Positions 14,598 to 49,561 of a stretch of 64,000 nt of DNA are shown piece by piece. How positions within the stretch are numbered: position 1 is the first letter of the stretch; each line of letters opens with the position of its first letter. The position numbers and the translations under genes were made by a program. A model generated the notes under the pieces. That model made no database searches, had not been told where the DNA came from, and saw only the letters and a program-made list of their open reading frames with translations. The DNA comes from Polaribacter litorisediminis. GTDB lineage: Bacteria > Bacteroidota > Bacteroidia > Flavobacteriales > Flavobacteriaceae. The DNA is taken from positions 3,957,501 to 4,021,500 of the forward strand of contig NZ_CP082966.1 of assembly GCF_019968605.1 (NCBI RefSeq), read 5' to 3'.

Positions 14598-15566
14598 TTA
14601 TTGAGGTCAGTAGTTAGGAACCTATAATTTTACTTTGATATAGTTTTTCAGCTTTCGCCATTCTTAATATCAAATTATTAAAAATGTTCTTTTTGCTATT
14701 TGAGCGATTAATTCGATAACAAAACTCATCAAGATATCTTTCGATGTTAAAATCGCTTACTGATGAAAAGGTAGTTCTTATCCATAATTTTACCTGATGA
14801 ATCATCGTGTGTATTGCCATAAAATTCTTTCCTTGATTACTTTCTATTTGAGTAATATTATATTCTTTAATTAAAGGACGATAACCTCTCCGCTTATCTG
14901 TGGTTATTTTTGCGTTTTTATCAATGTGTTTATCAAATATTGTTTTTAATTCTTTAGCTGAATAATTATCAATTTTCAGAGCATACATTCTTTTAATTTT
15001 ACCCTTATCCGTTAATTCTACTGCGGTTACAATCTTTTTCTTAACCGAAACTACGTTTCTCCTCTTAATATCAAATCTTTTTCCTTTCCTCCAATCACAA
15101 ATTCATCAATATGAACGTTCCTTTCATAGGATGATTTTTACTAGATTTCATTGCTTCTTTAACTTTATGCATAAATAATCTTGCTGTTTTTTCAGTAACT
15201 CCAAAACGAACTCCCATGTAGCTGGCTGATAAACTTTTTGTGGTGGTTGACATTTCAAAACACATAAAAAGGGCTTTTCGTAAACCAAACTTCACTTTAT
15301 GAAACAGCATGTTTGCTGATGCAGTTTCTGTATGACTGCATTTGTTACAAGTTCTTGAAAAGTCCTTTCGGATTTGACTCTTTGAATGCTTACATTTTAA
15401 GCAATTAAAGCCTAATTCCTATTTAAAATTTGCCAGATATTCTTTACAATTTTCATCTGTTTTAAACCGATCACTAAACTCTAGAAGGTTTTGCCCTGTA
15501 AATAAATTCATAATTTACCTATTTTATTGACTCCTAAGACATGAAATTATCTACTGACCTTAATAA
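14598..15566 (-). mobile_element. IS1595-family insertion sequence (degenerate)
   Basis: The ends form an inverted repeat: TTATTGAGGTCAGTAG at 14598-14613 and its complement at 15551-15566, with one mismatch. The element encloses a broken ISXO2-like transposase gene on the minus strand. No matching 8-bp target duplication is visible on the two flanks, which suggests that one flank was later rearranged. The element lies between the yraN remnant and the integrase tail and probably replaced most of that integrase. Confidence 0.7.
14614..15511 (-). pseudogene. ISXO2-like (IS1595 family) transposase, inactivated
   Basis: Reading from the ATG at 15511, the first part (MNLFTGQNLLEFSDRFKTDE) meets an amber codon where family members normally have Trp. 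It continues in frame through a zinc ribbon (CLKCKHS, then CNKCSHT) to a stop near 15095. After at least one frameshift the DDE-type domain continues at 14614-14988: KITTDKRRGYRPLIKEYNIT, AIHTMIHQVKLWIRTTFS, YLDEFCYRINRSN. Three reading frames are needed, so it is dead. Confidence 0.8.
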
Positions 15567-15664
15567 TGTTAATCACAGGGCATAGTTCCATGAGTGCTTT
15601 GGAGAAATATTTAAGACAAATTGATGCGGAATTACCTGAAGATTACTCAAAATTATTTAAATAA
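15566..15664 (+). pseudogene. 3' remnant of tyrosine integrase (module 1)
   Basis: Only the last 30 codons survive: ITGHSSMSALEKYLRQIDAE, then LPEDYSKLFK and a stop. They contain the final His and the catalytic Tyr of a tyrosine recombinase. The segment is nearly the same as the end of the intact integrase at 47091-48398 (ITGHSSMSALEKYLRDIDAE). The rest of the gene is missing; it abuts the right end of the IS1595 element. A partner gene starts 1 bp downstream of the stop. Confidence 0.8.
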
Positions 15665-15665
15665 C

Positions 15666-16331
15666 ATGAACAAGGAACCTAGAAAAGTACATGCGATTTT
15701 TGAAGAATTAAGAGACCGAGCTTCGTATCCATTTTTGTTTTATATACCAAAAAGTTATGTTGAAGTCTTTATGGAAGAAAAATTGCTCAATGAAATTGAT
15801 TGGGCATTTGATGTCTTAACTATGGCGAGGAAAAAAATGGATATTATTTTTATGGATGATAAAGACGAATCACAATAAGTATTCAAAAAGCAACGTGCTT
15901 TAAAGGAGAATTTATTTGATTTGGCTGAATATGAATCCGTCTTAAATCCAGCACAATTTTCAATTTTAATTAATAATTACAAAGAGCATTTATTTGTAAT
16001 GCATTATTTGGCTGAATTATTAGTCTTGGATGTTCATTCAAGTAAAGATGAAAGGTATAAAAAGTATTTAGGTCATTTTACGCTACAAAATGCGGCTTAT
16101 AGGTTGCATAAATCAGGTATTGATAAAGATTTTCCTGGTTTTAGAAAAACCCAAGCTGAAGAGGATTTTATGCGTGAATGCGTTATGATTCACTTAAATA
16201 TTCCAGAAATACTGCAAGAAGAAATTGCTCCACCGAAACAAAAAGTAAAGAAGAAAAAGCAACAGTATCTTACAGATGAAGAATCTCAAAAGTATTTGTT
16301 AGAAACCGTTTTTGATATAAAAATCGAATAA
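15666..16331 (+). pseudogene. Integrase-partner protein gene with one in-frame stop
   Basis: The frame from the ATG at 15666 runs 70 codons (YPFLFYIPKSYVEVFMEEKL, MDIIFMDDKDESQ), hits TAA at 15876-15878 and then stays open in the same frame to 16331 (VFKKQRALKENLFDLAEYES, then QYLTDEESQKYLLETVFDIK). The total is ~221 codons. It aligns along its length with the partner gene at 48391-49119: YPFLFYIPKS with SDFFFFIPRN, HLFVMHYLAE with CLFFMSYWMS, and LTDEESQKYLLETVFDIKI with ISESEAEKILLKAIFKLDI. One substitution explains the break. I do not recognise a named family. Confidence 0.7.
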
Positions 16332-16350
16332 AAGTTGCACTTTATTGCAA

Positions 16351-16384
16351 TTAAGTGTTAATTGTACATACAATTAACGCTTAA
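16351..16384. repeat. 34-bp palindrome after partner gene (module 1)
   Basis: The 16-bp arms TTAAGTGTTAATTGTA and TACAATTAACGCTTAA are complementary at 15 of 16 positions with a 2-bp centre. They include the core GTTAAT-N10-ATTAAC at 16357-16378, also found after the partner gene of module 2. It sits 19 bp after the partner stop and just before the zinc-ribbon ORF. It could be a terminator-like hairpin (no T tract follows), an operator or a recombination-protein site. Confidence 0.6.
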
Positions 16385-16396
16385 TACACAAAAAAT

Positions 16397-16483
16397 ATGG
16401 AAGAGCAATATTATTGCTGTCGATACTGTAAAAAGGATTTTGTACCAAAAAGAAGGAAAGAACGTAAAACAAGTAGTTATTAA
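16397..16483 (+). pseudogene. Truncated zinc-ribbon ORF (module 1)
   Basis: 28 codons: MEEQYYCCRYCKKDFVPKRR then KERKTSSY and a stop. The CxxC followed by an Arg/Lys-rich VPKRR matches the start of the zinc-ribbon protein of module 2 (CTHCNINYIPTRRR), but the second Cys pair and the whole C-terminal domain are absent. It therefore looks like the 5' stump of the same gene type. Confidence 0.5.
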
Positions 16484-16494
16484 CCCTTCTAGAA

Positions 16495-16630
16495 TTAACC
16501 CAACAGAATTAGTGGTATTAGAATTGCTATAGCTTTTAAACCACTAAAAACTAAATAAATAGAACCAATAATGCTAATACCGAAAATAGTAAACCAAAGA
16601 GCCGACAAAAGTAATAAATTGCATAGTTCC
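16495..16630 (-). pseudogene. Sodium:solute symporter fragment
   Basis: On the minus strand a frame reads ALWFTIFGISIIGSIYLVFS, then GLKAIA, then ILIPLILLG and a stop. The piece around GSIYxxFxGLKAIA is typical of one helix-loop-helix of SSS-family sodium:solute symporters, and the ILIP segment resembles the next helix after an internal deletion. Only ~40 residues are recognisable. It appears to be of a different SSS clade from the remnant at 45605-46556. It is a scrap left at the island edge. Confidence 0.4.
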
Positions 16631-16734
16631 TTCTTTGAATAAAAAAAATCGAATATAAAAATTTTAGAGGAGACAAATAGAAATTGAATAAACCATTTAT
16701 AAGGTGAAAAAAATGAAGACTTTGAGTTTTAGGT

Positions 16735-16795
16735 TATAATTACCCTTATTTGGTCTATAATTACCCTACCTTTTAATGAATGAAACATAATTTTG
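16735..16795 (+). promoter_or_regulatory. PUL1 operator A and promoter
   Basis: Two identical 12-mers TATAATTACCCT (16735-16746 and 16756-16767) are spaced exactly 21 bp apart, two helical turns, as expected for direct-repeat binding by AraC-type domains. A -7 element TAATTTTG (16788-16795) follows 25 bp after the second ACCC, and the sulfatase ATG is 24 bp further. Similar repeat pairs with the same promoter spacing lie before the two other PUL1 enzyme units. They are the likely binding sites of the HTCS regulator at 30279-34298. Confidence 0.6.
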
Positions 16796-16818
16796 TTATT
16801 CATTGAAAAAATAATTAA

Positions 16819-18222
16819 ATGAAGTTTATAAAAGCATTGCTAATCTTGTTCGCGTTTTTTCTGATAACAAACTACACAACAAGAGCACAAGAATCTAATA
16901 AACCCAACATCATTATTATATTAACTGATGATCAAGGTTATGGAGATGTTGGTTTCAATGGTAGCAAACAGATAAAGACGCCAAATATTGATCAACTGGC
17001 AAAAAATGGAGCTGTCTTCACAAATGGATATGTAAGTTATGCTGTTTGCGGGCCAAGTAGAGCGGGATTAATAACAGGAAGATATCAAGATCAATTTGGG
17101 TACAGTAGAAATCCGCTTTTTGGTCCTAAAGATGCTTCATTAGGTTTACCACTAGAAGAAGAAACTTTGGCAGAAGCACTTAAAAAAGCAGGGTATATAA
17201 ATATGGCAATTGGTAAATGGCATTTAGGTGCACACGCTACTTTACGACCTTTAAAAAGAGGTTTTGATGAGTTTTATGGTTTTTTATCTGGGGGGCACAA
17301 ATATTTTCCAGAGCAATTAATTCGTAAGGATTTATCCGAAGTTGGTTCGCAATTTGATGCCTATAATACCAAGCTTTTACGAAACGATACAAGAGTTGAA
17401 GAAACAGAATATCTAACGGATGCTTTTTCTAGAGAAGCCGTAAATTTTGTGGATAAAAATGCCGAAAAACCTTTCTTTTTGTACTTAGCTTACAATGCAC
17501 CCCATGCACCTTTACAAGCAACTGAAAAATATTTATCTAGATATCCAGATATAAAAAATAAGGATAGAAAAACGTACGCGGCTATGGTGAGTGCCGTAGA
17601 TGATGGTGTTGGATTATTATTGCAAAAATTAAAGGATTTAAATATTGATAAAAATACTATAGTTTTCTTTTTGTCAGACAATGGAGGTAATGAAAATAAA
17701 GGTTCTTTTAATGGTCCTCTAAAAAAAGGAAAAGGTTCTTTGTTTGAAGGCGGCATTAGAGTTCCTTTTGCAGTGCAATGGGAAGGTACAATTTTACCAA
17801 ACCAACAATTTGAATACCCAATAATATCACTAGATATTTTTGCAACAGCAGTAGCACAAGCCAACGTAACTCCTAGAAATAAAATTGATGGGAAAAATTT
17901 AATTCCGTATTTATCAGGTAAGAATAATGAAGCGCCTCATGAAACTTTGTACTGGAGAATGTATGATAAAAAATCAGCAGCAGTTAGAAAAAATAATTTC
18001 AAATACATCATTGAAAAAGAGGGTGAAGTTGGTTTGTACAATCTAGCCAATGATATTTCAGAAAAGAACAACATAAAGGATTCTTTGAAGATTAAAGAAT
18101 TAAAAAGTTTATATGAGATTTGGAACAAAAACAATATCAATCCTATTTTCTATGGATTGGGAGATAATAAAGAATACAATCAAAAAAACCCAAAAAGATT
18201 TAAAAATGTCGAAAAATATTAA
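16819..18222 (+). CDS. Secreted sulfatase (S1 family)
   Basis: 467 residues. The signal peptide ends at TTRAQ. The alkaline-phosphatase-like sulfatase fold has the metal-binding ILTDDQGYGDVG near the N-terminus, the formylglycine motif Cys77-Gly-Pro-Ser-Arg, GKWHLG, and FFLSDNGG. It hydrolyses sulfate esters on a glycan after its Cys is converted by a maturase not encoded in this window. It is the first gene after operator A. Its 3' end overlaps the next gene by 17 bp, so the two enzymes are translated together. Confidence 0.93.
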   Translation: MKFIKALLILFAFFLITNYTTRAQESNKPNIIIILTDDQGYGDVGFNGSKQIKTPNIDQLAKNGAVFTNGYVSYAVCGPSRAGLITGRYQDQFGYSRNPLFGPKDASLGLPLEEETLAEALKKAGYINMAIGKWHLGAHATLRPLKRGFDEFYGFLSGGHKYFPEQLIRKDLSEVGSQFDAYNTKLLRNDTRVEETEYLTDAFSREAVNFVDKNAEKPFFLYLAYNAPHAPLQATEKYLSRYPDIKNKDRKTYAAMVSAVDDGVGLLLQKLKDLNIDKNTIVFFLSDNGGNENKGSFNGPLKKGKGSLFEGGIRVPFAVQWEGTILPNQQFEYPIISLDIFATAVAQANVTPRNKIDGKNLIPYLSGKNNEAPHETLYWRMYDKKSAAVRKNNFKYIIEKEGEVGLYNLANDISEKNNIKDSLKIKELKSLYEIWNKNNINPIFYGLGDNKEYNQKNPKRFKNVEKY

Positions 18223-19867
18223 ATCCTCAATTTTATACAATTTTTTTTCATTACTTATATTGATTGGCTTTTTTGCTTGCGGGAAACAGCAACATAACAA
18301 TTATTATTTTCATCCCAATTCAGGAGATGATTCCAATGCAGGAACGTCTAAAGCTAGCCCTTTTCAATCGCTTTCAAAAATTAAAGAATTAAAAATTTCT
18401 GCTGGAGATACTTTGTTTTTATCATCTAATCAGATATTTACAGAAAGTTTAGAGTTGGTAGACATTAGCGGGTCTAAACAAAACCCGATTGTGATTACAG
18501 TTTATGATAACAAAAAAAAAGATGATAAAGCCATTATTAAAACAGCAGGTTTGCTAAATGCAATTTTGGTAGAAAATTCAAGTTTTATAGAAATCCATAA
18601 TTTAGAAGTATCTGCAAATCCAGATGAAAATCAACATAAACCTACTCAAAACCAAATGCGTTGTGGAGTTTTAGTAGAAACTACAAAACCAGGAACTTTT
18701 GAACATATCTACCTTAATAATTTACTAGTTAGCGATATTTTTTTCGAAAAAGAAGGAGTTTCAAGGTCTAAAAAAGAAACCAAATCTGCTAACGGAACGC
18801 AAAACTATGGTTGGGGAATTCGTTTTATCAATAGCCATAAAGATGCTATTTTAAAAGATGTAAAAGTAAGCGGAAGTAGTATAAAAAATGTTTCGCATAC
18901 GGGTATCAAACTTACCTCTGGAAAAAGCAAGTATGGTATTGTAGACTTTGAAATTTCAGGAAATCAAGTTTTAGAAACTGGAGGACCTGGCATTCAAATG
19001 TCTGGAGTAAAAAATGGACATATTTTTAACAATATTGTAGATAAATCTGGCAGTAATAACGACTCTAGAAAATGGGGCAGAGGTAGTGGTTTATGGACTT
19101 GGGGAGCATCAGACATCCTTATTGAAAAAAACCGATTTACAAATGCAAATGGCCCAGGAGATTCTGCCGGCGCACATATAGATTATAATTGTAATAACAT
19201 TGTATTGCAATATAATTTTAGCGGAAACAATGCTGGTGGATTTTGTGAAATACTAGGAAATAATCACAATTGTTCATACAGATACAACATTAGTGTGAAC
19301 GATGGTCATAGAGTAAAAGGTGAAAAGGATGCTTTTCAAGAAGGGAAAACCTTTTGGATTAGTGCGTACAGTGGTAAGAAAAGAATTGGTGCTAAAAACA
19401 GCTATTTTTACAACAATACCATTTATGTAAAAAAAGAAATTGATGCCAAGTTTGCTGTGGATAGAATTTCAAAAGGAGTACTCATTGCAAATAATATTTT
19501 TCACATAGAAGGCGATGCACAAGCTGTAAAGGGCGACCAATACAATCCTGAGTCTAAAGGCAAATGGTTGGTTACAGATGTGTTTTTTAAAAACAATCTT
19601 TTTCTACACACCTCTAGTTGGCCAAAACCACTGCCTCTACAGGATGAAGCACCTATTTTCGGGGATGCAAATTTTAAAAATTTAGGAGGATTTTCTATCG
19701 CTGACTACACACCAACCAATCAACAATTAATTAAAAACAAAGGGGTAAAAATTCAGAATTTACCTAAAGATACTATTGGTTTAAAATACGGCTTACACCT
19801 TGAAAAAGATATCTTGGGTAATAAAATCATTGGATTGCCAGATTTAGGTGCTATAGAAATGCAATAG
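18206..19867 (+). CDS. Right-handed beta-helix lipoprotein
   Basis: 554 residues from the ATG at 18206; the open frame extends back to 18113 within the sulfatase gene, but only the internal ATG gives a lipoprotein signal (LLILIGFFACGKQQ). The opening YYFHPNSGDDSNAGTSKASP is the common start of secreted parallel beta-helix proteins (DUF1565/pectate-lyase-like). Many helix rungs follow (GIKLTSGKSKYGIVDFEISG, GPGIQMSGVKNGHIFNNIVD) and the end is DLGAIEMQ. It could be a polysaccharide lyase, a glycoside hydrolase or an epimerase. No catalytic signature decides between them. It is surface- or periplasm-anchored. Confidence 0.75.
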   Translation: MSKNIKSSILYNFFSLLILIGFFACGKQQHNNYYFHPNSGDDSNAGTSKASPFQSLSKIKELKISAGDTLFLSSNQIFTESLELVDISGSKQNPIVITVYDNKKKDDKAIIKTAGLLNAILVENSSFIEIHNLEVSANPDENQHKPTQNQMRCGVLVETTKPGTFEHIYLNNLLVSDIFFEKEGVSRSKKETKSANGTQNYGWGIRFINSHKDAILKDVKVSGSSIKNVSHTGIKLTSGKSKYGIVDFEISGNQVLETGGPGIQMSGVKNGHIFNNIVDKSGSNNDSRKWGRGSGLWTWGASDILIEKNRFTNANGPGDSAGAHIDYNCNNIVLQYNFSGNNAGGFCEILGNNHNCSYRYNISVNDGHRVKGEKDAFQEGKTFWISAYSGKKRIGAKNSYFYNNTIYVKKEIDAKFAVDRISKGVLIANNIFHIEGDAQAVKGDQYNPESKGKWLVTDVFFKNNLFLHTSSWPKPLPLQDEAPIFGDANFKNLGGFSIADYTPTNQQLIKNKGVKIQNLPKDTIGLKYGLHLEKDILGNKIIGLPDLGAIEMQ

Positions 19868-20004
19868 TTTCTATAAAAGTGTTAGTGAACTGACATTACC
19901 AAAATTAGCACCCGTTGTTTATTTTATAAAATTAACACACGATAAAGGAATTTTTACAGAAAAAATAATGCTAGAATAACTATTCATACGATGATTGATT
20001 AAAG

Positions 20005-20059
20005 TCCCCAATTTTATTTTAAATTACCCTAAACTTATACAATTTAGCGTAATTTTTTG
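20005..20059 (+). promoter_or_regulatory. Orphan copy of PUL1 operator and promoter
   Basis: A TCCCC at 20005 and an ATTACCCT with its ACCC at 20026 are 21 bp apart. TAATTTTTTG at 20050-20059 begins 24 bp after the second, copying the layout of operators A and C, although the -7 element has two extra bases. It points rightward into a gap with no protein gene and converges on the end of the minus-strand sulfatase operon. It may be a leftover from a lost gene or the promoter of a short RNA. Confidence 0.35.
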
Positions 20060-20065
20060 CTTTCA

Positions 20066-20230
20066 TCAGTTACCAATAAATGTAAAAACTTCATTAGTTA
20101 ATGTTATTAAGTTGCGACAATTCTTTAAATCATTCTTCAACTTGTAAATAGATTTTAAAATAGGATATCTTTTGTTGAAACGATTCTTAAAATATCGGTC
20201 AAAAAAAAGCAGCCACAAAGACTGCTTTTT
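20066..20230 (+). ncRNA. Candidate short RNA between convergent units
   Basis: Hypothetical. A transcript starting just after the orphan promoter would run ~165 nt with no plausible reading frame and end at the symmetric hairpin at 20204-20230, which has a T run on this strand too. PUL-linked small RNAs are known in Bacteroides (for example DonS), which makes the idea reasonable. Nothing but layout supports it here. Confidence 0.2.
20204..20230. terminator. Bidirectional intrinsic terminator
   Basis: The 9-bp stem AAAAAGCAG / CTGCTTTTT with a 9-nt loop is flanked by an A8 run on the left and T5 on the right, so it can stop transcription on both strands. It ends 16 bp from the stop codon of the minus-strand sulfatase. 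Confidence 0.75.
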
Positions 20231-20246
20231 CAATTGATTTATTAAC

Positions 20247-21782
20247 TTATTTCGATAAAGCAACAATACTATCAATCTGTGCTTGCATCTTCGTTACTAA
20301 AGCTTCATTTTTTGAAGCAATGTTAGTTTGCTCTCCGAGATCTTTTGATAAATCATAAAGTTGAGGTTTTTCTGAAAATCCGCCTTCTACTTTTTTGTTT
20401 ACAATCCACTTTGGAAAATCTTTGTCGCTAATAGGTGCAATGTATTTATAGTTTTTATTTCTTATAGATAATGTGAACGATTCCTCTAACATCATTTCGC
20501 GAGCTTCACTACCTGAGTTTAACAAAGCATCTTTTACATTTTTGCTATCAATAGCTGTGTTAGTATCCATTTTTTGTGAGACCAAACTACTGAAAGAAGC
20601 ATAATAATCAATTTGAGAAATTAGAGCATTACTTTCTCCTTTTTTAATAGTTCCTGGCCAATAGGTAATCATTGGGACTCTTGTACCCGCTTCAAAAGCA
20701 CTGTATTTTCCGCCTCTAAAAGGACCTGCAGGTTTGTGATCTCCTAAATTTTCTTCTGCTCCATCTTCATAACCATCATTTAAAACAGGGCCATTATCAC
20801 TTGTAAAAATAACCAGCGTGTTTTTATCAAGTCCTAATTCTTCCAATTTATTGATAATTTGTCCTGTTGTCCAATCCATTTGCGCAATTGCATCACCTCT
20901 TAATCCCATAGAAGATGCTCCTTGAAACTTTTCGTTTGGTAGTCTTGGAACGTGAATATCGTGAAAAGAGAAAAACAAAAAGAAAGGATTTTCTTTGTTG
21001 TTTTCTATAAACTGATTTGCTTTTTCAGAGAACACAAAAGGAAAGTTTTCATCTTTCCAAAGTGCAGAAGTACCTCCTGTTTGATTTCCAATTCTACTGA
21101 TGCCATTTACGATGGCTTCACTATGTTGTTTGTCTGCAGGATATCGTAGCAATTCAGGATTGGTAATTCCTGTAGGCACACCTTTAAAAGGCTTTTGATA
21201 GCTGATTTTGATAGGGTCATTAGGGTCTAAATTTAATGCTTTATGGTTTTCTACATATACTGTAGGAACTCTATCTCCAGTTGCTGGCAATAAAAAACTA
21301 TAATCAAAACCAATTTCTAAAGGTCCGGGTTTTATTTCTTTGTTCCAATCTGTATTTCCATCACCTAAACCCAAATGCCATTTGCCAACAACCGCTGTTT
21401 TGTATCCTGCTTTTTTAAGCATGCTAGGTAAAGTTGATTTTGCTGGATTGATTAATAACGGAGCATCTCCAGGTAAAATTGCAGCATCGTTTCTAAAGGC
21501 GTATTCTCCTGTAAGAAGAGAGTATCTAGAAGGCGTACAAGTAGCAGCAGAGCTATGAGCATCTGTATATTTAATCCCATTATTTGCTAGCTTGTCTACG
21601 TTAGGCGTGGTAACTCCAAGAGCACCATAACTGCTTAAATCTCCATACCCTAAATCATCAACATAAAAGATAACGATATTTGGTTTTTGGGAAACTGTTT
21701 TGGTTACATCTGCTTCTTTTTTCTTGTTGTTGCAAGAAACTACTACTAGTAAAAAACTTATAATTAGAAGATTGTTTTTCAT
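20247..21782 (-). CDS. Lipoprotein sulfatase (S1 family)
   Basis: 511 residues. The lipobox is VVVSCNNK. Sulfatase hallmarks are YVDDLGYGDLS, Cys82-Thr-Pro-Ser-Arg (formylglycine site), GKWHLG, FTSDNGPV and an arylsulfatase-A-like FEAGTRVPMITYWPG. It is the last gene of the susCD operon, and its ATG overlaps the stop of the upstream sulfatase by 4 bp (ATGA), so the two sulfatases are translationally coupled. The target sulfate position is unknown. Confidence 0.93.
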   Translation of the reverse strand: MKNNLLIISFLLVVVSCNNKKKEADVTKTVSQKPNIVIFYVDDLGYGDLSSYGALGVTTPNVDKLANNGIKYTDAHSSAATCTPSRYSLLTGEYAFRNDAAILPGDAPLLINPAKSTLPSMLKKAGYKTAVVGKWHLGLGDGNTDWNKEIKPGPLEIGFDYSFLLPATGDRVPTVYVENHKALNLDPNDPIKISYQKPFKGVPTGITNPELLRYPADKQHSEAIVNGISRIGNQTGGTSALWKDENFPFVFSEKANQFIENNKENPFFLFFSFHDIHVPRLPNEKFQGASSMGLRGDAIAQMDWTTGQIINKLEELGLDKNTLVIFTSDNGPVLNDGYEDGAEENLGDHKPAGPFRGGKYSAFEAGTRVPMITYWPGTIKKGESNALISQIDYYASFSSLVSQKMDTNTAIDSKNVKDALLNSGSEAREMMLEESFTLSIRNKNYKYIAPISDKDFPKWIVNKKVEGGFSEKPQLYDLSKDLGEQTNIASKNEALVTKMQAQIDSIVALSK

Positions 21783-23260
21783 GGTCTTTTTTGTGAAATA
21801 TTCATGTTTTTAGTTGGCTCTTTGTAGAGCACTTCTTTATTCTGCATTAATCTTTTGTGAATGTGATACGTAACATCCATCCATTCTTTTTCTTCTTGCC
21901 AAAGAGGTGCTATCATTTTTGATTCCCAATTTTTAAGTTTGGAATTCATTAAATTTAATGTTGATGTATCGCTTTTCGATAAGTCTTTTGTTTCTCCAAT
22001 ATCATACTCTAAATTATAGAGTCTTTCTCCGTAATTTTTAAGTTTTATCAATTTGTAATCATTGTAACGCGCACCAGATTCTTCTAGTTTACGCCAATAT
22101 AAGTCTGTGTGCGGATTTCCCTTTTTAGCATTTTTTAGATAAGGGAGTAAATCTACGCCATCAATAGCTAAACCTTCGTTGTTAATTTTTGCAGCAGCAA
22201 TTGAGGTAGAAAAGATGTCTAAAGATGATGTTAAACCATCAAACTTTACACCTCCTTTTATTTGATTTGGCCAGCTCATTAAAAAAGGCACTCTATGTCC
22301 GCCTTCAAATTTGTTTCCTTTCCAACCTTTTAGGTATCCATTGTTTGCTGTGTTTGTTGTTGCACCACCATTATCACTTAAAAAGTAAATTAATGTATTG
22401 TCCAATAGGTTTAATTCTTTCAGTTTTTTCACAAGTTTCCCTACATTTTCATCTAAAGACCAAGTCATGGCAGCAAGCTTTTTACGCGAATGATTTTTGT
22501 ATTTTAGTAAATGCTCTTTTTTTGCGTGCATAGGCGTATGAACGGCATTGTAAGCTAAATACATAAAGAAAGGTTTCTCTTGATGTTCTTCTACAAATTT
22601 TACGGAGTAATCACCTAATACGTCTGTTAAGTATCCATCAAATTCTACCCTTTTATGATTGTGTTGTAGCATCAGTTCTTCAGAAGGGTTTTTTAAAGGA
22701 AAATAAGATCTACCACCTGCTAAAAAACCGTAAAAATCATCAAAACCTCTATTGTTTGGATGATCTGTTTTGGTAGCTCCTAAATGCCATTTTCCTAAGG
22801 CTACTGTTTGATAAGAATCTTTTTTTAAAACATCTGCAATGGTAATTACATCATCCGATAAGCCTATGTCTCCTGAGTTTCCATAGCCAGTTCCGTTGGC
22901 TTCAAATCCAAATCTTTGTTGATATTTTCCTGATATAATACCAGCTCTTGATGGAGCGCAAACTGTAGCACTTACATGAGCATCAGTAAAAATTACACCC
23001 TCTTTTGCTAACTTATCTATTTCAGGAGTTTCTAAATCTTTACTTCCCATAAAACCAAAATCTACATAGCCAGCATCATCTACCAAAATAACAATAATAT
23101 TTGGTTTTTTAGTAGGTTGATTTTTAGGTGTAATTTTATCAGAATTTACCTTTACTGTTACAAGCGTACTTCTTTTATTCTTGTCTGCACAAGAATTTAC
23201 TATTGAAAAAATACAACAAGCTAAAAATAGGTTTTTTATAGATTTTAAGTGTTTTAACAT
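21779..23260 (-). CDS. Lipoprotein sulfatase (S1 family)
   Basis: 493 residues. The lipobox is at IVNSCADK. Motifs are ILVDDAGYVDFG (note YVD where most have YGD), Cys101-Ala-Pro-Ser-Arg, GKWHLGA, and YFLSDNGGATT. The C-terminus extends past the usual end with a basic tail. It probably acts in the periplasm on oligosaccharides imported by the SusC/D pair. It follows the CBM/T9SS gene, separated by a stem-loop. Confidence 0.92.
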   Translation of the reverse strand: MLKHLKSIKNLFLACCIFSIVNSCADKNKRSTLVTVKVNSDKITPKNQPTKKPNIIVILVDDAGYVDFGFMGSKDLETPEIDKLAKEGVIFTDAHVSATVCAPSRAGIISGKYQQRFGFEANGTGYGNSGDIGLSDDVITIADVLKKDSYQTVALGKWHLGATKTDHPNNRGFDDFYGFLAGGRSYFPLKNPSEELMLQHNHKRVEFDGYLTDVLGDYSVKFVEEHQEKPFFMYLAYNAVHTPMHAKKEHLLKYKNHSRKKLAAMTWSLDENVGKLVKKLKELNLLDNTLIYFLSDNGGATTNTANNGYLKGWKGNKFEGGHRVPFLMSWPNQIKGGVKFDGLTSSLDIFSTSIAAAKINNEGLAIDGVDLLPYLKNAKKGNPHTDLYWRKLEESGARYNDYKLIKLKNYGERLYNLEYDIGETKDLSKSDTSTLNLMNSKLKNWESKMIAPLWQEEKEWMDVTYHIHKRLMQNKEVLYKEPTKNMNISQKRP

Positions 23261-23277
23261 ATTTTTATTTTAAAAAA

Positions 23278-23323
23278 AATAGTAGAGAAAAAGGTTTTTG
23301 GTTTCCGTTATTACTCTACTATT
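23278..23323 (-). terminator. Intra-operon stem-loop
   Basis: A perfect 10-bp stem, AATAGTAGAG / CTCTACTATT, with a 26-nt loop lies between the CBM/T9SS gene and the two sulfatases. On the minus strand a run of A/T bases follows. It may be a partial terminator or an RNA processing/stability element that sets lower sulfatase expression. Confidence 0.5.
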
Positions 23324-23349
23324 ACATTCAAACTAATACATGAAACTTT

Positions 23350-24117
23350 TTATTGTTTGATAAATTTAGAGGTCCCTTTTTTACCATTAATGGTTGCTCT
23401 TAACATATAAATACCACTACTTAGAGTTGCAACATCTAATTGAGTTTTACTACTATTTGGTAAAACATTGATAACTTTTTGACCCAAAACATTGAAGATT
23501 TCTACTTTTTCTACGTTTTCTGATGCAGAAATATGTAAGCTGTTATTTACCGGGTTTGGATAAGCACTAAAGTTAAATTGTTTTAAATTTTCTAGGGATG
23601 CTGTGGATGATTTTGTAAAAGAAACATCATCTAAGTTTACAGGTTTATTACCATTTGGTTTAAAAAATAAAAGTCTTATTTTGGTTACACCACTAGGTAT
23701 AGTTACACTAAAATCTGCTGTAAGCCATTCATCTAAATTGGTACTAAAAGTATAACCGTTAGAATTATCTGTAAAATCTAAATTTGGTCTTCCAGAGGCC
23801 AATTCATCTTTCACACGAGCAGTTAAAACAGCGTTGGCTGCGCTACCAGAACCTAACCATCTGTATTTAAAACTTACATCATACGTGTCTCCAGGAGTTA
23901 CATCTATCAAATGAAAAAGAGAACCGTCGCCATTTTCTACTTGACCAACATTAGAGGTGGTAATATCATCGACAGCAATTCTATTTTTAAATCCGCCCCA
24001 AGATTCTACAGGGTCTCCAATAGCACCAGTTTGAAAGTCTCCATTTACCACTAAGTTTTGGCTAAACCCAATAGAAGAGATTAATAAAGTAAGAAATAAT
24101 AAAGTAATTTTTTTCAT
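23350..24117 (-). CDS. Secreted carbohydrate-binding-module protein with T9SS tail
   Basis: 255 residues. The signal peptide (MKKITLLFLTLLISSIGFSQ) is followed by a jelly-roll CBM4/9-like domain at ~21-170 (LVVNGDFQTGAIGD, then DGSLFHLIDVTPGDTYDVSF, VNLDDVSF). Residues ~182-255 form a type IX secretion sorting domain (FSAYPNPVNNSLHI, VLGQKVINV, SSGIYMLRA). There is no catalytic domain. The CBM is a clear relative of the C-terminal domain of the adjacent GH128-like protein. It probably binds the PUL1 polysaccharide at the cell surface. Hairpins flank the gene on both sides. Confidence 0.8.
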   Translation of the reverse strand: MKKITLLFLTLLISSIGFSQNLVVNGDFQTGAIGDPVESWGGFKNRIAVDDITTSNVGQVENGDGSLFHLIDVTPGDTYDVSFKYRWLGSGSAANAVLTARVKDELASGRPNLDFTDNSNGYTFSTNLDEWLTADFSVTIPSGVTKIRLLFFKPNGNKPVNLDDVSFTKSSTASLENLKQFNFSAYPNPVNNSLHISASENVEKVEIFNVLGQKVINVLPNSSKTQLDVATLSSGIYMLRATINGKKGTSKFIKQ

Positions 24118-24146
24118 AATAGTATGCTTTAAGTAGGTTTATAATT

Positions 24147-24182
24147 AATGTTCAGTCTTAAAATGTTTTAAAACTGAACATT
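24147..24182 (-). terminator. Intra-operon near-perfect hairpin
   Basis: The 17-nt arms AATGTTCAGTCTTAAAA and TTTTAAAACTGAACATT pair with a single mismatch around a 2-nt centre, 12 bp after the GH128-like stop and 30 bp before the CBM gene start. There is no T tract, so RNA processing, stabilisation or attenuation is more likely than full termination. Confidence 0.55.
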
Positions 24183-24193
24183 TCGTGTTTGTA

Positions 24194-27087: not shown

Positions 27088-27091
27088 GATG

Positions 27092-30274: not shown

Positions 30275-30278
30275 GAAT

Positions 30279-34298: not shown

Positions 34299-34388
34299 CA
34301 GTAAATAGGATATCAATTTTTATTGAATTGTTAAATTACTTTAAGTCTTTTACATATGCAATGTTAAAAGACAATTTGACCACTTAGC

Positions 34389-34443
34389 ACCCATAAAAGA
34401 ATGGATATAACCCACTGCTTGATTAAGAGTTTAAATATTTTTG
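34389..34443 (+). promoter_or_regulatory. PUL1 operator C and promoter
   Basis: ACCCAT (34389) and ACCCAC (34410) are direct repeats spaced 21 bp. A -7 element TATTTTTG (34436-34443, matching TAnnTTTG) starts 26 bp after the second repeat, 24 bp before the ATG at 34460. It lies in the divergent gap between the HTCS gene and the right-hand enzyme operon. Confidence 0.5.
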
Positions 34444-34459
34444 AGGTAAAATTAAATAG

Positions 34460-36769: not shown

Positions 36770-36770
36770 A

Positions 36771-38183: not shown

Positions 38184-38186
38184 AAT

Positions 38187-40696: not shown

Positions 40697-44829
<4,133 letters not shown>

Positions 44830-44837
<8 letters not shown>

Positions 44838-45546
44838 CTTACACAAACTCTTAAAATCGGGATTATTAATTTCATTGTTTATATTGGTTTCTTGCCAAGA
44901 AAAAGGAAAACACGTATTTATTCTTTCAGGACAATCTAATATGGTAAGGATGAATCCCAAATTGTCTTTTACTCCTAAGTTAGAAGCTGAGTTTGGAAAA
45001 GAAAATATTATTGTGGTTAAAGACGCTATGGGAGCACAACCAATTTCAAGATGGTATAAAAACTGGAAATCACCTAAAGGAGATTTGGCAAATATTACTG
45101 GTGATTTATATGATAGATTGATGACAAAGGTTTCAGATTCTATTAAAAATCAACAGATAGCATCTATTACATTTATTTGGATGCAAGGTGAACGTGATGC
45201 AAGAATGGAGTTTGCAAGTGTCTATGAAGAAAGTTTACTGGGTATTTATCAGCAATTATCAACCGATTTAAACAGAAGTGACATCAATTTTATCATAGGA
45301 CGATTGAGTGATTTTGACATGGAAAATAAGAAATGGCCTCATTGGACAAAAATTAGAGATATTCAAGAGAAAGTAGGTAATTCAAACTCAAATTTCAAGT
45401 GGGTAAATACGGATGATTTAAACACAGGATTAGACAATAATGGAAAAGAAGTTACAGACGATTTGCATTTATCAGCAGAAGGCTATAAGATTTTAGGAAC
45501 ACGTTTTGCTGAAGAATCTATCAACTTGATTAACAAAAAGGAGTAA
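44830..45546 (+). CDS. SGNH/SASA-type carbohydrate esterase lipoprotein
   Basis: 238 residues. The lipobox is ILVSCQEK. It has the sialate-O-acetylesterase-like SGNH fold: block I LSGQSNM (Ser36 nucleophile), WMQGERDA, and the Asp/His pair in DDLHLSAEGY near the C-terminus. It probably deacetylates the oligosaccharides released by GH16 and GH128-like enzymes. It is the last gene of the right-hand PUL1 operon and is followed by a strong terminator. Confidence 0.85.
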
Positions 45547-45586
45547 AAAAATACACTTTGCGTATCAATTAAACAAAGTGTATTTT
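45547..45586. terminator. Bidirectional intrinsic terminator at PUL1 end
   Basis: The 13-bp stem AAAATACACTTTG / CAAAGTGTATTTT with a 13-nt loop has A-rich and T-rich flanks on the two sides. It serves the + strand enzyme operon and the minus-strand symporter remnant that converge here. Confidence 0.8.
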
Positions 45587-45604
45587 AAATATTTTTTGAT
45601 TCGT

Positions 45605-46556
45605 TTAATTCCAAAATACACTATACAATACTACCAAAATCAGCATAATTGCAAACGAACCAATATTAAATAACGGACTTGTTTTAAACAAGGCTCTTGA
45701 TATGTCAATCCTTTTTTCGTCATCTGCTCCTTTATGTTGAAAGTAACTTACGAATGCAATCACAATCATTGTTAATATCAAAGTATAGCCCATTTGATCC
45801 ATAAACGGCACATCTACAAAAATTGAGCTAGTAGACCATCCTTTAGGTGAAACTTTAAAATACATCGCAATTGGAATAGAAACTAATGCTCCAACGATTG
45901 CTCCTTTGTTGGTTGTTTTCTTCCAGAACAATCCTAGCATAAACACTGCCCAAATTCCTGGACTTACCACACCCGTATATTCTTGAATAAATTGAAATAC
46001 TTGATCTAAATTTCCTAATAAAGGCGCCATAATACATGCGATTAACAAAGCGACACCCGCAGAAATTCTACCCATATTTACTGTGGCCTTATCACTTGCT
46101 GTTTTATTGATGTATTGTTTGTAAATATCCATGGTAAAAATGGTAGAGGTTGAGTTCAACATCGAAGCTAAAGAAGAAACAATAGCTGCGGCTAAAGCTG
46201 CAAACGCAACTCCTTTTAATCCTGTTAGTAAAAATTGTAATAACCATGGATATGCTTTATCGGCTTGTTCTGCACTTGGTAAATTCTCTAAACCAGCCAT
46301 CCCTAATCTTGCCATAATTTCTGGGTCATTGACCATCACATACGCTGCAATTCCAGGAATTACAACAATTAACGGAATTACTAATTTTAAACCAGCTACA
46401 AATAAAATTCCTTTTTGTGCTTCCTTTAAAGATTTTGCAGCTAAAGTTCTTTGAATGATGTATTGATTAAAAACCCCAGTAATATAAATTGGCAACCCAC
46501 ATTCCACCTACAAGAACTGCAATGTCTGGTAAGTTTTTGTATTCTGGATTTGATTT
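45605..46556 (-). pseudogene. Sodium:solute symporter, truncated and frameshifted
   Basis: The C-terminal ~300 residues of an SSS-family symporter (NQYIIQRTLAAKSLKEAQKG, SSLASMLNSTSTIFTMDIYK, PGIWAVFMLGLFWKK). The homology continues upstream in another frame, DIAVLVGGMWVANLYYWGF, and the two join if one base of the A5 run at 46469-46473 (T5 on the coding strand) is removed. Upstream of about 46556 the similarity stops, so roughly the first 250 residues of the protein are missing. A full-length relative would import a sugar with Na+; this one should be inactive. Confidence 0.8.
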
Positions 46557-46579
46557 ATATAACAATCTGTATTGCAAAA

Positions 46580-46729
46580 CGGAATTTTGTGGGTACATAC
46601 CATAAAATTAAAAAGAAGTATCTTCAACTATGCTTAAATGAATTTGTCTACAAACTTATCCGAAGATATTTTGGAGAAAAAATATTTGATAGGCTCGTTA
46701 TAACTAATATTACAGGTTATGACCAATAA
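46580..46729 (+). pseudogene. C-terminal scrap of an ISXO2/IS1595-type transposase
   Basis: The + strand frame reads GTYHKIKKKYLQLCLNEFVY, then KLIRRYFGEKIFDRLVITNI and a stop. This is the typical end of ISXO2-like transposases (HxxVSKKYLQxYLNEFCYKLNRRYFGE). Nothing of the remaining transposase is present. It abuts the broken symporter end, so this insertion probably caused the truncation. It is unlike the C-terminus of the IS at 14598-15566, so it is a separate element. Confidence 0.6.
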
Positions 46730-46992
46730 CGGGTATACAGATATATTATTTCACAAAAATTAGAAACCTCAAAAGTGTAAATTGAAAGCATTTAAAAAAG
46801 TCAGAGCAAACAAAAGAATCGAAAAATAGAAATGACTATTTTGTGTTATGCAATAATATTTTTTTTTCAATCGAAAAATCCCTAAATTGCAATTAGAAAA
46901 TTAAATAAATAATCCGATCTAAACTGAATACGATTTAGAACACGATTTTAAAATAAATAGGGTTGAAAAGGGCAAAAATGAGTGTTTTCCTC
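46730..46992. other. AT-rich spacer, no gene recognised
   Basis: Between the transposase scrap and the tRNA fragment I see no coding frame, strong hairpin or promoter. It is the left flank of the tRNA-derived attachment site. Confidence 0.6.
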
Positions 46993-47037
46993 GAGCTCAT
47001 AACCCAAAGGTCACTGGTTCGAGTCCAGTTCCCGCTA
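46993..47037 (+). tRNA. 3' part of initiator-type tRNA-Met (attachment site)
   Basis: The sequence from GCTCATAACCC to the acceptor end looks like the 3' half of tRNA-fMet: CAT anticodon followed by AACCC, variable region AAAGGTC, a perfect T arm (ACTGG TTCGAGT CCAGT), acceptor TCCCGCT and discriminator A at 47037; no CCA is encoded. The 5' half (acceptor, D arm, 5' side of the anticodon stem) is absent: upstream sequence shows no match. A terminator and an integrase gene follow, as expected for an island end inside a tRNA gene. Confidence 0.65.
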
Positions 47038-47060
47038 CAAGATATAAAGTATTAAAAAGT

Positions 47061-47090
47061 AACGGTTTAGTTTTCCTAAACCGTTTTTTT
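47061..47090 (+). terminator. Intrinsic terminator after tRNA fragment
   Basis: The 10-bp stem AACGGTTTAG / CTAAACCGTT with a 5-nt loop and a T7 tract ends directly at the integrase ATG. It is the natural terminator of the tRNA gene carried with the fragment, and it should insulate the integrase from upstream transcription. Confidence 0.8.
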
Positions 47091-48398
47091 ATGTCTACGT
47101 TAAAGGAATTAATTATCTTCGACGCACAAAGTGAATACGAAAGTGCATACGATTTGTCCAACAAAAGAAACTTTTCCAATCCAAAAATTTACTCAGCCCA
47201 AGGCGATTTAGAAAAACGCTGGTATGTTTATTTTTCATTTCGAGATCCAAATAGTGGAAAGATGAAACGGATTACTCCGTTTTACGGCAATGCCAATCAG
47301 TATAAAACCAAAGAGGACAGACTCTCTGTTTTAGTTACCTATAGAAAAGTGCTATTAAGACTTTTGAAACAAGGCTATAATCCATTTGTAGACAATACTG
47401 AACTTTATGCTCAAAGGACTTCGAAAAAATCGACTAAAAATTCAAAAGGACAAGTCCATAATTCATCAGCTAAGAAATCAAAACCCGGAATTAAAATTAA
47501 GGAAGCATTTGCATTTGGATTAAAGCAAAAAGAAAAGATTGTTAATGCTACTACAAAACGAAGTTATGACAGTCGCGTAAAGATTTTTTTAGAATGGTTA
47601 GATGAAAATTACCCTTTACTGACTGCAATAGAGGAATTAAACAAAAAAGTACTATCTGGTTTTTTAAATGATATTTTAGAAAAAACTAGTGCTCGAAATA
47701 GAAACAATTATCGCACAGATCTGAGCAGTATTATGCAAGTTTTGGAAGATAATGATATGATTCCCCAAAATTTCATTAAAAAAATCCCTGTTTTAAAATC
47801 AATCCCTGAGAGAAACAAAACGTACACAAAAAAAACTCAAGAAGAAATCTTTAAACACTTAGAAACGAAAGACCCCAAGCTGCTGTTATTTATTAAATTT
47901 ATTTCTTACAATTTTTTGCGTCCAATTGAAGTATGTAGATTGAGAGTAGGGGATATCAATTTAAAAGAAAGAACTATTCAATTTAAAGCAAAAAACAGTC
48001 CTTTAAAAACTAAAATTATCCCAGAAATACTATGGGGTGAATTACCAGATTTATCTCAATTAGACAAGGATTTATTATTGTTTACACCCGGTCAAATAGG
48101 AGGAATGTGGGAAACCGAGTTAAGTAACCGAAGAGACTATTTTACAAAGCGATTTAAAAAGGTGGTAAAAGAGCCTTTTGAGTTGGGTAAAGATTATGGA
48201 TTGTATAGCTTCAGGCATACCTATATCACAAAACTGTATAGAAGTTTGGTAAAAGAATCTTCACCCCATACAGCTAAGGGTAAGTTAATGCAAATCACTG
48301 GGCACTCCTCAATGTCAGCATTAGAGAAATACCTGAGAGATATCGATGCAGAATTACCAGAAGATTATTCAGAAATGTTAAAGAATAGCGATGAGTAA
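47091..48398 (+). CDS. Tyrosine-type site-specific integrase (module 2)
   Basis: 435 residues. The N-terminal arm-binding part carries the pattern IYSAQGDLEKRWYVYFSFRD. The SAM-like core-binding domain is at ~135-235 and the catalytic domain at ~245-425: Arg277 (FLRPIEVCRLRVGD), a Lys in the beta-hairpin (~299-307), box II YSFRHTY with Arg375 and Tyr at the usual first His position, His405 (ITGHSS), and nucleophile Tyr414 (LEKYLRDID). It lies directly after a tRNA-Met fragment, its probable target. It overlaps the partner gene by 8 bp. Confidence 0.9.
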   Translation: MSTLKELIIFDAQSEYESAYDLSNKRNFSNPKIYSAQGDLEKRWYVYFSFRDPNSGKMKRITPFYGNANQYKTKEDRLSVLVTYRKVLLRLLKQGYNPFVDNTELYAQRTSKKSTKNSKGQVHNSSAKKSKPGIKIKEAFAFGLKQKEKIVNATTKRSYDSRVKIFLEWLDENYPLLTAIEELNKKVLSGFLNDILEKTSARNRNNYRTDLSSIMQVLEDNDMIPQNFIKKIPVLKSIPERNKTYTKKTQEEIFKHLETKDPKLLLFIKFISYNFLRPIEVCRLRVGDINLKERTIQFKAKNSPLKTKIIPEILWGELPDLSQLDKDLLLFTPGQIGGMWETELSNRRDYFTKRFKKVVKEPFELGKDYGLYSFRHTYITKLYRSLVKESSPHTAKGKLMQITGHSSMSALEKYLRDIDAELPEDYSEMLKNSDE

Positions 48399-49119
48399 AG
48401 ACACTTTAAGGGATTATTATTTAGGCTTACTTCCAAACTTGACGTCAGACTTTTTTTTCTTTATCCCAAGAAACAAAATCACTCGAGAGATAATCGATAA
48501 AATGGATTTTCTACAGAACAAAAAGGTTTATAACAAAGCTCTTTTAATAGATTTTAACGAAGGATTTATTGAATATGTAAAAGGGGAGTCTAGTTCGAAC
48601 TTCATCTACAAAAAAAGTTGTTTAGATAAGAATATTTTTAGTTTGTTGGAAAAGAAGAACGAGGTTACAGACTATGAATTTGATTTTGTTTTAGAAAAAT
48701 ATTTTGAACTAGCAGAGTGTTTATTTTTCATGTCATATTGGATGAGTATTCACGTTGCTAAAATTGGATTTTACGATGAATATACTTGGAGTATATTCCG
48801 CATTCAGTCTCAAAATTATAAAAAACATTTTGAAGTCTTAGTGAAGAAATTTTATCCAAGTAGAGAAACTATTCCGAAAGGGGATTTTAATAGGCTAGAA
48901 TTGATAGACAAATATTTTCCAGATATTAAGAGTTTATTTGACAAACAAAAAAAGAAACCTGAGCTTATAAAAGACAAGAAAGAGGAAGACAAAAATGAAA
49001 ACAAAATAGACGGTTCAAAAAGAGAAAATATAAAAAAGAAAGCTCTAATTAGCGAATCCGAAGCAGAAAAGATATTATTGAAAGCCATATTTAAATTGGA
49101 TATCGATGGCATAAATTGA
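48391..49119 (+). CDS. Integrase-partner protein of unknown function (module 2)
   Basis: 242 residues with no signal peptide. The N-terminal part (YYLGLLPNLTSDFFFFIPRN) and central helices (YFELAECLFFMSYWMSIHVA) are followed by a highly charged Lys/Glu linker (~190-220) and a C-terminal ISESEAEKILLKAIFKLDID. The same three blocks occur in the broken gene after the integrase tail at 15666-16331. The 8-bp overlap with the integrase implies coupled translation. It might be a directionality or accessory factor. That is inference: I recognise no named family. Confidence 0.7.
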   Translation: MSKDTLRDYYLGLLPNLTSDFFFFIPRNKITREIIDKMDFLQNKKVYNKALLIDFNEGFIEYVKGESSSNFIYKKSCLDKNIFSLLEKKNEVTDYEFDFVLEKYFELAECLFFMSYWMSIHVAKIGFYDEYTWSIFRIQSQNYKKHFEVLVKKFYPSRETIPKGDFNRLELIDKYFPDIKSLFDKQKKKPELIKDKKEEDKNENKIDGSKRENIKKKALISESEAEKILLKAIFKLDIDGIN

Positions 49120-49122
49120 AAG

Positions 49123-49158
49123 ATTATGCGTTAATCATACGTTTAATTAACGTATAAT
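49123..49158. repeat. Palindrome after partner gene (module 2)
   Basis: The 13-bp arms ATTATGCGTTAAT and ATTAACGTATAAT (one mismatch) surround a 10-bp spacer. The core GTTAAT-N10-ATTAAC (49130-49151) matches the core of the palindrome at 16357-16378 in both sequence and spacing, at the same place relative to the partner gene. Confidence 0.6.
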
Positions 49159-49561
49159 CATCAAAAAAACAGAAATTTGCACCCATTGCAATATAAATTA
49201 CATCCCTACCAGACGAAGAGTCCAAAAGTTTTGTTCCAAATCGTGTAAGTCTCGATATTGGTATTTAAAACAGAATAATAAAACAAAGGAACTATCTTTA
49301 AGTAATCAAAATAAACCCAAAGAATCACAACACAATACAAAAATTGACACTATGAGTGCTGCAGGAGTTGGAAATGCAGCAGCAGGAACAGCATTAGTTG
49401 AGTTAGGTAAAAATGTATTTGGGATTGCAGCAGCGACTAAAAAAGATATCCAAGAGCTAAAATCATTTATAAAGGGACGTTATTTACCAATAAATAATCT
49501 AATGAAAGACTCAATGGGGAGATTTCCATATTATGATGTTGAAACTGGGCATGTGGTTTAA
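49154..49561 (+). CDS. Zinc-ribbon protein with non-canonical or lost start
   Basis: The frame is open from 49151 to the stop at 49559-49561 and encodes a Cys4 ribbon: CTHCNINYIPTRRRVQKFCS, then KSCKSRYWYLK. A polar linker, then a small domain MSAAGVGNAAAGTALVELGK ... TKKDIQELKSFIKGRYLPIN ... FPYYDVETGHVV follow. There is no ATG, GTG or TTG before 49352, so a conventional call would drop the zinc ribbon. An ATA/ATC/ATT start near 49154-49177 or a mutated start are the options. The stump at 16397-16483 is the equivalent gene of module 1. Confidence 0.5.
   Translation: MIIKKTEICTHCNINYIPTRRRVQKFCSKSCKSRYWYLKQNNKTKELSLSNQNKPKESQHNTKIDTMSAAGVGNAAAGTALVELGKNVFGIAAATKKDIQELKSFIKGRYLPINNLMKDSMGRFPYYDVETGHVV

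Follow-up and report, generated by a model that had tools for sequence, protein, structure and literature searches.

A stretch of 64 000 nucleotides in the genome of Polaribacter litorisediminis (positions 3957501–4021500 of the single 4.34-Mb contig; hereafter the window) holds two modules, each composed of an integrase gene, a gene that we call the partner, a palindrome and a zinc-ribbon gene, and each followed by a polysaccharide utilization locus (PUL). We consider it highly probable, judging from the sequence, that these modules are the left ends of one family of site-specific genomic islands that insert at tRNA-Met(CAT), form tandem stacks and have PULs and defence systems among their cargo. 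Several elements of this picture are directly visible: copies of the attachment site (att), the gene order, end repeats specific to individual islands, recurrence of the arrangement across genera and an island that Zobellia and Maribacter largely share.

The initial annotation of the window missed a 3′ half of tRNA-Met located immediately before module 2 (46996–47039). The 33-bp core of this sequence, CTCATAACCCAAAGGTCACTGGTTCGAGTCCAG, occupies positions 46996–47028, and the 3′-end of the tRNA is reached near 47039; as ARAGORN called no tRNA gene in the window, we regard this att copy as a tRNA fragment. A search of the genome for the core, with up to three mismatches allowed, returned seven copies, situated in two oppositely oriented arrays; one is a complete tRNA gene and the other six are fragments. 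The copies of array A are on the minus strand (3128309, 3107403, 3069522 and 3043251, with spacing of 20.9, 37.9 and 26.3 kb); those of array B are on the plus strand (4004496, i.e. the window copy, 4035979 and 4068669, with spacing of 31.5 and 32.7 kb). Only the copy at 3128309 belongs to a complete tRNA-Met gene; we take its GGG/CCC anticodon stem to be the mark of an initiator tRNA. Behind each core copy there is a terminator-like hairpin of its own. Six of the seven copies are then followed by an integrase open reading frame (ORF) of the family and the seventh, at 3043 kb, by a remnant; the integrase at 3069 kb lacks its C-terminal part and reads into the partner. An additional right end was found at 4103347, its core broken off after 16 bases. 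Islands are designated below A1 to A3 in array A and B0 to B3 in array B.

Elsewhere in the genome, remnants of the integrase family occur at 1038 and 1673 kb, and the other tRNA-Met(CAT) gene (1065743–1065817) is adjoined by a family integrase (1064238–1065692). An inversion of ∼0.9 Mb was considered as the source of the opposite orientation of the arrays; we do not claim it.

The features of the window are as follows (window coordinates, with strand where one applies).

14092–14598, plus strand: UPF0102 (yraN) fragment of 507 bp; a 97% identical repeat is at genome 4103638–4104144, past the right-hand end of array B
14599–15563, minus strand: debris of an IS1595-type insertion sequence (IS; PF12762), truncating the front of module 1
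15564–15667, plus strand: C-terminal tail of the module 1 integrase, corresponding to residues 399–433 of the module 2 integrase (77%)
15666–16331, plus strand: module 1 partner gene, interrupted, in two open pieces; its C-terminal tail fits the partner tail profile
16348–16387: module 1 palindrome, symmetric at 16 of 20 positions of the arms
16397–16483, plus strand: module 1 zinc-ribbon stump of 28 codons, the CxxC half of the ribbon
16819–46507: PUL, cargo of the proposed island B0, with a hybrid two-component system (HTCS) regulator, SusC/SusD, sulfatases, GH2, Glyco_hydro_cc proteins and the end of an SSS-type transporter
46910–46995: proposed right end of B0, with repeats of AACACGATTT type, as in the modules nearest to module 1
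46996–47039 (core 46996–47028), plus strand: att site, 3′ half of initiator tRNA-Met (incomplete tRNA gene); proposed right end of B0 and left end of B1
47061–47090, plus strand: terminator-like hairpin and T run, ending at the integrase start codon; present after each att copy
47091–48398, plus strand: module 2 tyrosine recombinase (integrase), 435 aa
48391–49119, plus strand: module 2 partner, 242 aa, with no Pfam, PHROGs or NCBIfam family above cut-off; its C-terminal tail is common to genes preceding the zinc-ribbon gene
49121–49160: module 2 palindrome
49151–49561, plus strand: module 2 zinc-ribbon frame, open, lacking a usual start codon where one is expected
49658–64000, continuing to genome 4035978: PUL, cargo of the proposed island B1, with an extracytoplasmic function (ECF) sigma factor, FecR, SusC/SusD and more glycan and sugar genes

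The initial annotation described the two modules as having the same gene order and strand, a palindrome each, and clear similarity in every part. The order and strand are borne out by the module coordinates and by searches, and both palindromes are far better than those of shuffled sequences (z of −5.4 and −4.9; 0 of 200 shuffles equally good). The similarity was overstated: the only convincing DNA match is between the integrase tails (73% over 97 nt, E 5e-12), the palindromes match weakly (74% over 46 nt, E 0.002), and the partners have just the C-terminal tail in common. The idea of one module present in two copies was rejected: the DNA match between modules 1 and 2 is limited to integrase tail and palindrome, and module 1 groups with the modules of A3 and B2, sharing 97% identity over 895 nt with one of that group (genome 4037417–4038311). 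Module 1 has decayed, as the initial annotation said, but it is not a decayed copy of the module 2 type.

The module 2 integrase scores 27.4 bits with PF00589 (cut-off 27.1) and matches a PHROG integrase at 2.6e-29; its 242-aa partner, searched against its own genome, found only itself at E≤1. In the zinc-ribbon frame of module 2, ATG, GTG and TTG are absent from the expected place, and the first in-frame one is internal, at 49352; for this reason module 2 itself may be partly decayed. Between the yraN fragment and the integrase tail of module 1 lies the IS1595-type transposase debris (14599–15563); a 270-bp part of it recurs just upstream of the window. The 507-bp yraN repeat (97%) flanks array B on both sides and may mark a past rearrangement.

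Behind att, where the integrase starts, there are short repeats; these are found again at the opposite end of the same island, in versions specific to the island: GTAAACG, GTACAC and AACACGATT. We assessed the pairing of ends in 23 att-bounded stretches of this and other genomes, near-copies included. The 9-mers common to left and right ends summed to 290 for true pairs versus 72.7 for permuted pairs, with none of 20 000 permutations as high. Repeats of the AACACGATT type, which A3 and B2 also have, precede the att copy of the window. Given these repeats, and the 97% identity of module 1 to the A3/B2 modules, one island, B0, would extend from module 1 to the att copy at 46996; the sequence indicates that B0 and B1 abut at this copy. 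The finding of an att copy between the two islands, and of more copies in the genome, bears out the tandem insertion of related, PUL-carrying islands that the initial annotation proposed.

The cargo of the islands is diverse. A PUL after each module, the two differing in regulation, had been noted initially and was found again: the PUL of B0, with SusC/SusD, sulfatases and GH2, has an HTCS, and that of B1, with SusC/SusD, has an ECF sigma factor and FecR. A third PUL island is A3, where profile search identified SusD, GH3 and GH16. Island A2 carries Cas10, type III-D Cas7, Csx1-type CARF-HEPN and Cas1, along with a repeat array of ∼5 kb; A1 carries a WYL regulator and helicases that are RecD-like and UvrD/RecB-like according to profiles, as well as a RecC recognised by reading only. 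The seven large ORFs scanned in B2 gave matches to models of Dru/BrxH-type helicases, DpdE/DrmD, DrmMI, LeoA/LeoBC, TmtA and DpdF; efflux and signalling genes of B3 were recognised by reading only. The islands amount to 5.0% of the genome and hold three of its ten SusD (PF07980) genes (binomial P 0.011, calculated after the fact). The transporter genes that end B0 (window 45604–46581) and B1 (genome 4034796–4035768) form an inverted repeat, 87% identical over 978 bp. Three repeats of ∼457 bp (85–91% identical) were also seen at window 58328–59542, within a 568-aa ORF with no Pfam match.

The arrangement is not confined to this genome. A profile of the zinc-ribbon protein detected 723 proteins at E≤0.001 among 1700 candidates of a protein database, and 30 loci in named genomes, 29 of them with long matches; the remaining one (L069, Rokubacteria) had a chance-like match of 28 residues and was dropped, though it is counted within the 30. 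All 28 long-match loci whose family or genus name was recognised are from Bacteroidota. The initial annotation had taken integrase, partner and zinc-ribbon gene for a conserved module. The integrase and zinc-ribbon gene do go together, with a family integrase directly upstream in 24 of the 30 loci and another tyrosine integrase in 2 more; the partner is not fixed, varying from ∼60 to 325 aa, with divergent sequence and only the C-terminal tail in common. Distances among integrases and among zinc-ribbon proteins correlate (Mantel r 0.645, 0 of 5000 permutations as high; 34 of 35 modules used). Among the 24 integrases, 23 follow tRNA-Met(CAT), either complete (19) or a fragment (4), of the initiator type in 13 cases and of the other type in 10. 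The notion of one tRNA per integrase clade was rejected: initiator and other CAT types alternate within clades (e.g. L062, L063), and the label of tRNA type is barely clustered on them (60 and 64 of 500 shuffles as low).

At least two exact copies of the core were present in 25 of 116 Polaribacter genomes, and in 13 genomes same-strand copies were 10–60 kb apart; some of the close pairs are plain repeated tRNA genes. Polaribacter pectinis (G020) has four successive units of att, integrase and zinc-ribbon gene with spacing of 31–36 kb; genome G053 has six core copies (two of them complete tRNA genes) with four integrases, and Zobellia russellii four copies with two integrases. In the arrays of this and ten other genomes, a family integrase stands within ∼100 bp behind 22 of 35 exact core copies. 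Of the other 13, six are terminal right ends and five (in two Polaribacter genomes) are accompanied by other elements; the last two are a right end that precedes a second tRNA gene and a bare copy in Zobellia. The cargo again includes PULs: those of Z. russellii islands 2 and 3 have SusC, SusD and HTCS, island 3 also a sulfatase (by profile), and a Lutibacter island holds a SusD gene.

Island 1 of Z. russellii has a counterpart in Maribacter stanieri. The two modules are 95–99.8% identical; over the island, 22 of 33 one-kb windows are at 92–99.8% and one at 88%, in comparison with 74–80% in the host flank. This pattern suggests that the island was transferred recently, with mosaic exchange occurring earlier or later.

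One could suppose instead that the arrays grew by duplication and homologous recombination of repeated modules within one genome, the integrases being immobile relics. Some modules of P. litorisediminis are indeed nearly identical (A1/B3, 94% over 2 kb; A3/B2, 96–97%), several are broken, and both IS debris and the yraN repeat are present at the borders of array B. The B3 zinc-ribbon gene (genome 4070589–4070990) is a mosaic, A1-like in front and A2-like in the rest, which fits duplication as well; it suggests that cargo may be exchanged through recombination inside the gene. Duplication does not account for cargo that is unlike between islands, three integrase types standing side by side in the genome's own array, end repeats that pair within islands, and an island common to two genera; we regard it as highly unlikely.

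Insertion of separate islands at the tRNA gene would proceed as follows. The tyrosine integrase of an island, inferred to be an active recombinase, would recombine the island's copy of the tRNA-Met(CAT) 3′ half with the chromosomal gene. The island end would rebuild the 3′-end of the tRNA and supply its own terminator, so that the essential tRNA gene would stay intact, with one more att copy at the distal end of the island. Later islands would insert at the same place, producing head-to-tail arrays in the order att, integrase, partner, palindrome, zinc ribbon, cargo, att, integrase. The window would then be the border of two islands, B0 with the first PUL and B1 with the second. The end repeats may serve as arm-binding sites of the integrase, the partner may take the place of an excisionase (directionality factor), and the zinc-ribbon protein and palindrome may be a regulatory pair controlling the module. 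Features by which tRNA islands are recognised are present: a Phage_integrase-family gene at one end and direct repeats of the tRNA 3′-end, with the tRNA whole (array B has no complete gene).

The role suggested for the partner comes from its location and its C-terminal tail. A profile built from the tails of 19 partners and run on 4204 ORFs matched 43 at E<0.5, all of them between an integrase and a zinc-ribbon gene or where a zinc-ribbon gene would be expected; 20 of the 43 are neither training sequences nor copies of them. An HTH_17 protein of locus L052 is among the matches (E 0.23), and an HTH_17-like protein of L048 scores 33.5 versus 28.8 bits with an NCBIfam excisionase model. The partner itself has no excisionase match in Pfam, PHROGs or NCBIfam, the agreement being limited to position and tail; it appears to occupy the position of an excisionase. 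Its structure model has a mean predicted local distance difference test (pLDDT) score of 75.

The palindrome is 38–40 bp long (consensus AAATTATACGTAAATTAAACGTTTAATTTACGTATAATTA), with its centre mostly 16–30 bp upstream of the zinc-ribbon start. At least 14 of 20 positions are symmetric in 26 of 37 modules, and in 15 of 35 the symmetry is far above that of shuffles. We rejected its presence at each and every zinc-ribbon gene, since a site could not be recognised in 7 of 37 modules. With these seven omitted, the arms were found to co-vary beyond chance (paired cells 80.6% versus 71.2%, 0 of 2000 shuffles), while two counts of further pair types on the arms were not above chance (79 and 244 of 2000). 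The palindrome pattern occurs at nine places in the P. litorisediminis genome, all adjoining a zinc-ribbon gene or its remains; a control pattern occurs at none. In island A1 (genome 3125215–3126392), two consecutive zinc-ribbon genes have one palindrome each. Because a two-fold site adjoins the start codon, the data suggest that the palindrome may be an operator; other readings are a transcript hairpin or a recombination site.

Assignment of the zinc-ribbon protein to a known family was rejected: the best Pfam score was 20.8 versus 22.4 bits (zf-FCS), HNH-type PHROGs matched weakly, and no relevant solved structure was found; the predicted template modelling score (pTM) of its model is 0.31. 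Tentatively, and as a possibility that we hold to be less than even, the zinc-ribbon protein, the dyad of 38–40 bp and the tail-bearing partner could make up a new module of mobility control. The tail would dock the partner, standing in for an excisionase, to the zinc-ribbon protein or to the integrase, and the zinc ribbon would bind the palindrome; the module would let several integrase types stack and swap cargo at initiator tRNA-Met, a trading post for PULs and defence systems in marine flavobacteria.

Movement between cells may rely on helpers, natural uptake or an unknown carrier, and here two further explanations should be considered. The islands might be degenerate integrative and conjugative or mobilizable elements that lost their transfer genes and retained the integration module. 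An Arm-DNA-bind_5 integrase, an excisionase-family protein and DUF3987 form the layout of mobilizable elements, and relatives of the zinc-ribbon protein in L048, L052 and L054 occur with such an integrase, an excisionase-family protein and DUF3987 (one contig). In L048 and L054 another tyrosine integrase is followed by an excisionase-family or HTH_17 protein and then by the zinc-ribbon gene; the L052 contig begins too late to show an upstream integrase, and in L054 the element lies downstream of a gene reading as mnmE. Relaxase PF03432 has no match in the P. litorisediminis genome; single hits in 3 of 8 genomes (G020, G053 and G057) are all far from the arrays, and none is within an array. Moreover, the compact layout of integrase, partner and zinc-ribbon gene is kept across genera without transfer genes. 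Degeneration from such elements is unlikely in our estimation, though it deserves some weight.

Alternatively, the islands could be phage satellites packaged by helper phages, an explanation that finds a parallel in their size (∼21–44 kb), terminal integrase and defence cargo, and in the one distant relative of the integrase in phage records, from a Leeuwenhoekiella phage (34% identity). The zinc-ribbon protein, however, was not matched in any of 50 697 phage records, nor did viral contigs yield a confirmed relative, and packaging or capsid genes were not noticed among the island ORFs read (not all of which were profile-scanned); its one weak plasmid match was from Persicobacter (30%). Satellites appear quite improbable, and we retain the reading of the modules as ends of tRNA-Met islands.

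Several observations weigh against that reading. No clean empty site was found, the gene after the last att copy being different in every genome examined; in relatives the left flank (era) is conserved and the right one different everywhere. Array B has no complete tRNA gene, and a rearrangement must be assumed. The ends of B1 have two 9-mers in common (both strands counted), one Zobellia stretch has none, and many single islands find a better match in the right ends of same-type islands than in their own. Three loci are exceptions to the arrangement: L040, with an integrase and no tRNA, and L055 and L057, with no tyrosine integrase nearby. In the Zobellia/Maribacter comparison, 9 of the 33 windows are at 75–87%, no better than the host flank, and one has no match. 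As for the partner, its tail profile matches the HTH_17 excisionase proteins weakly (0.23 and 1.1, with chance hits starting from 0.58), and the partner's structure model found no relative in a PDB library (best E 0.35).

PULs related to both window PULs also occur elsewhere free of the module. The initial annotation had raised the case of the PULs being present in relatives with no integrase nearby, and this was found for relatives of both, in three related genomes, within the 27–60 kb examined: among the other 115 genomes of the genus, close relatives of the B0 SusD are present in two and of the B1 SusD in one, and around these three genes (60, 27 and 40 kb) there is no family integrase, zinc-ribbon gene or tRNA-Met core. 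With SusD relatives so few and module-free, both PULs would be rare in the genus and the module one vehicle among several.

The landing site appears to be used by other elements too. At 30 tRNA loci of the genus, era is usually immediately before the tRNA (by reading), and the downstream side varies. In some loci a family integrase follows; in others there are serine-type recombinases (L081, L091), integrases of another kind (L090, L096) or ordinary genes. Given such occupants (by reading) in related species, the era–tRNA-fMet locus is probably a general hotspot.

Tandem tRNA islands, stacking events at tRNA genes and PULs on mobile elements are already known. Additive flexible genomic islands of Alteromonas and Methylophilaceae have a conserved tRNA target with cassettes in a row and tRNA 3′-end repeats (PMC4119200, PMC10872708). 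According to the passages available, the target type, the serial addition and the recurring repeats are alike; those islands belong to other phyla and use other tRNAs, and the same passages describe no set of integrase, partner, zinc-ribbon gene and palindrome. Tycheposons of marine Prochlorococcus and others are cargo elements of 4–200 kb at tRNA genes, tRNA-Met included, with a tyrosine recombinase (PMC10872708), and have been counted among proposed families of phage satellites (PMC11389934). The likeness in tRNA target, tyrosine recombinase and variable cargo is one of description, as given in excerpts of these papers. Tandem integration of a mobilizable island is established for SGI1, and restoration of the split tRNA with displacement of the fragment is documented for tRNA islands (Islander), as excerpted from PMC2297512 and PMC4383910; here, unlike in those cases, several integrase types use one core and are stacked with unrelated cargo. 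Within Flavobacteriia, the 10K genomic island of Riemerella anatipestifer is tRNA-linked, and its tyrosine integrase was shown to integrate and excise; its target is Arg-tRNA and its 53-bp repeat is different (PMC6764341, in part). Mobile elements of gut Bacteroidetes include 47 PULs with SusC and SusD (PMC6907783), likewise with PULs as mobile cargo; these are from gut species and classified as integrative and conjugative or mobilizable elements, and tRNA arrays are not mentioned in the passages available. The insertion principle is thus known, and it is the module that is new, as far as the libraries searched go. No description matching the island family was found in the open-licence literature; the family may nonetheless have been described.

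Movement of PULs among marine Bacteroidota has so far been inferred mostly from gene trees; the islands proposed here give it a vehicle with exact ends and a defined landing site. The islands thereby become searchable in any flavobacterial genome, and gains could be dated. The palindrome, the zinc-ribbon protein and the tail-bearing partner, with no function assigned, are a small set suitable for testing. With PULs and anti-phage systems travelling on one vehicle at one essential tRNA gene, the carbon niche of these bacteria would be linked with their phage defence.

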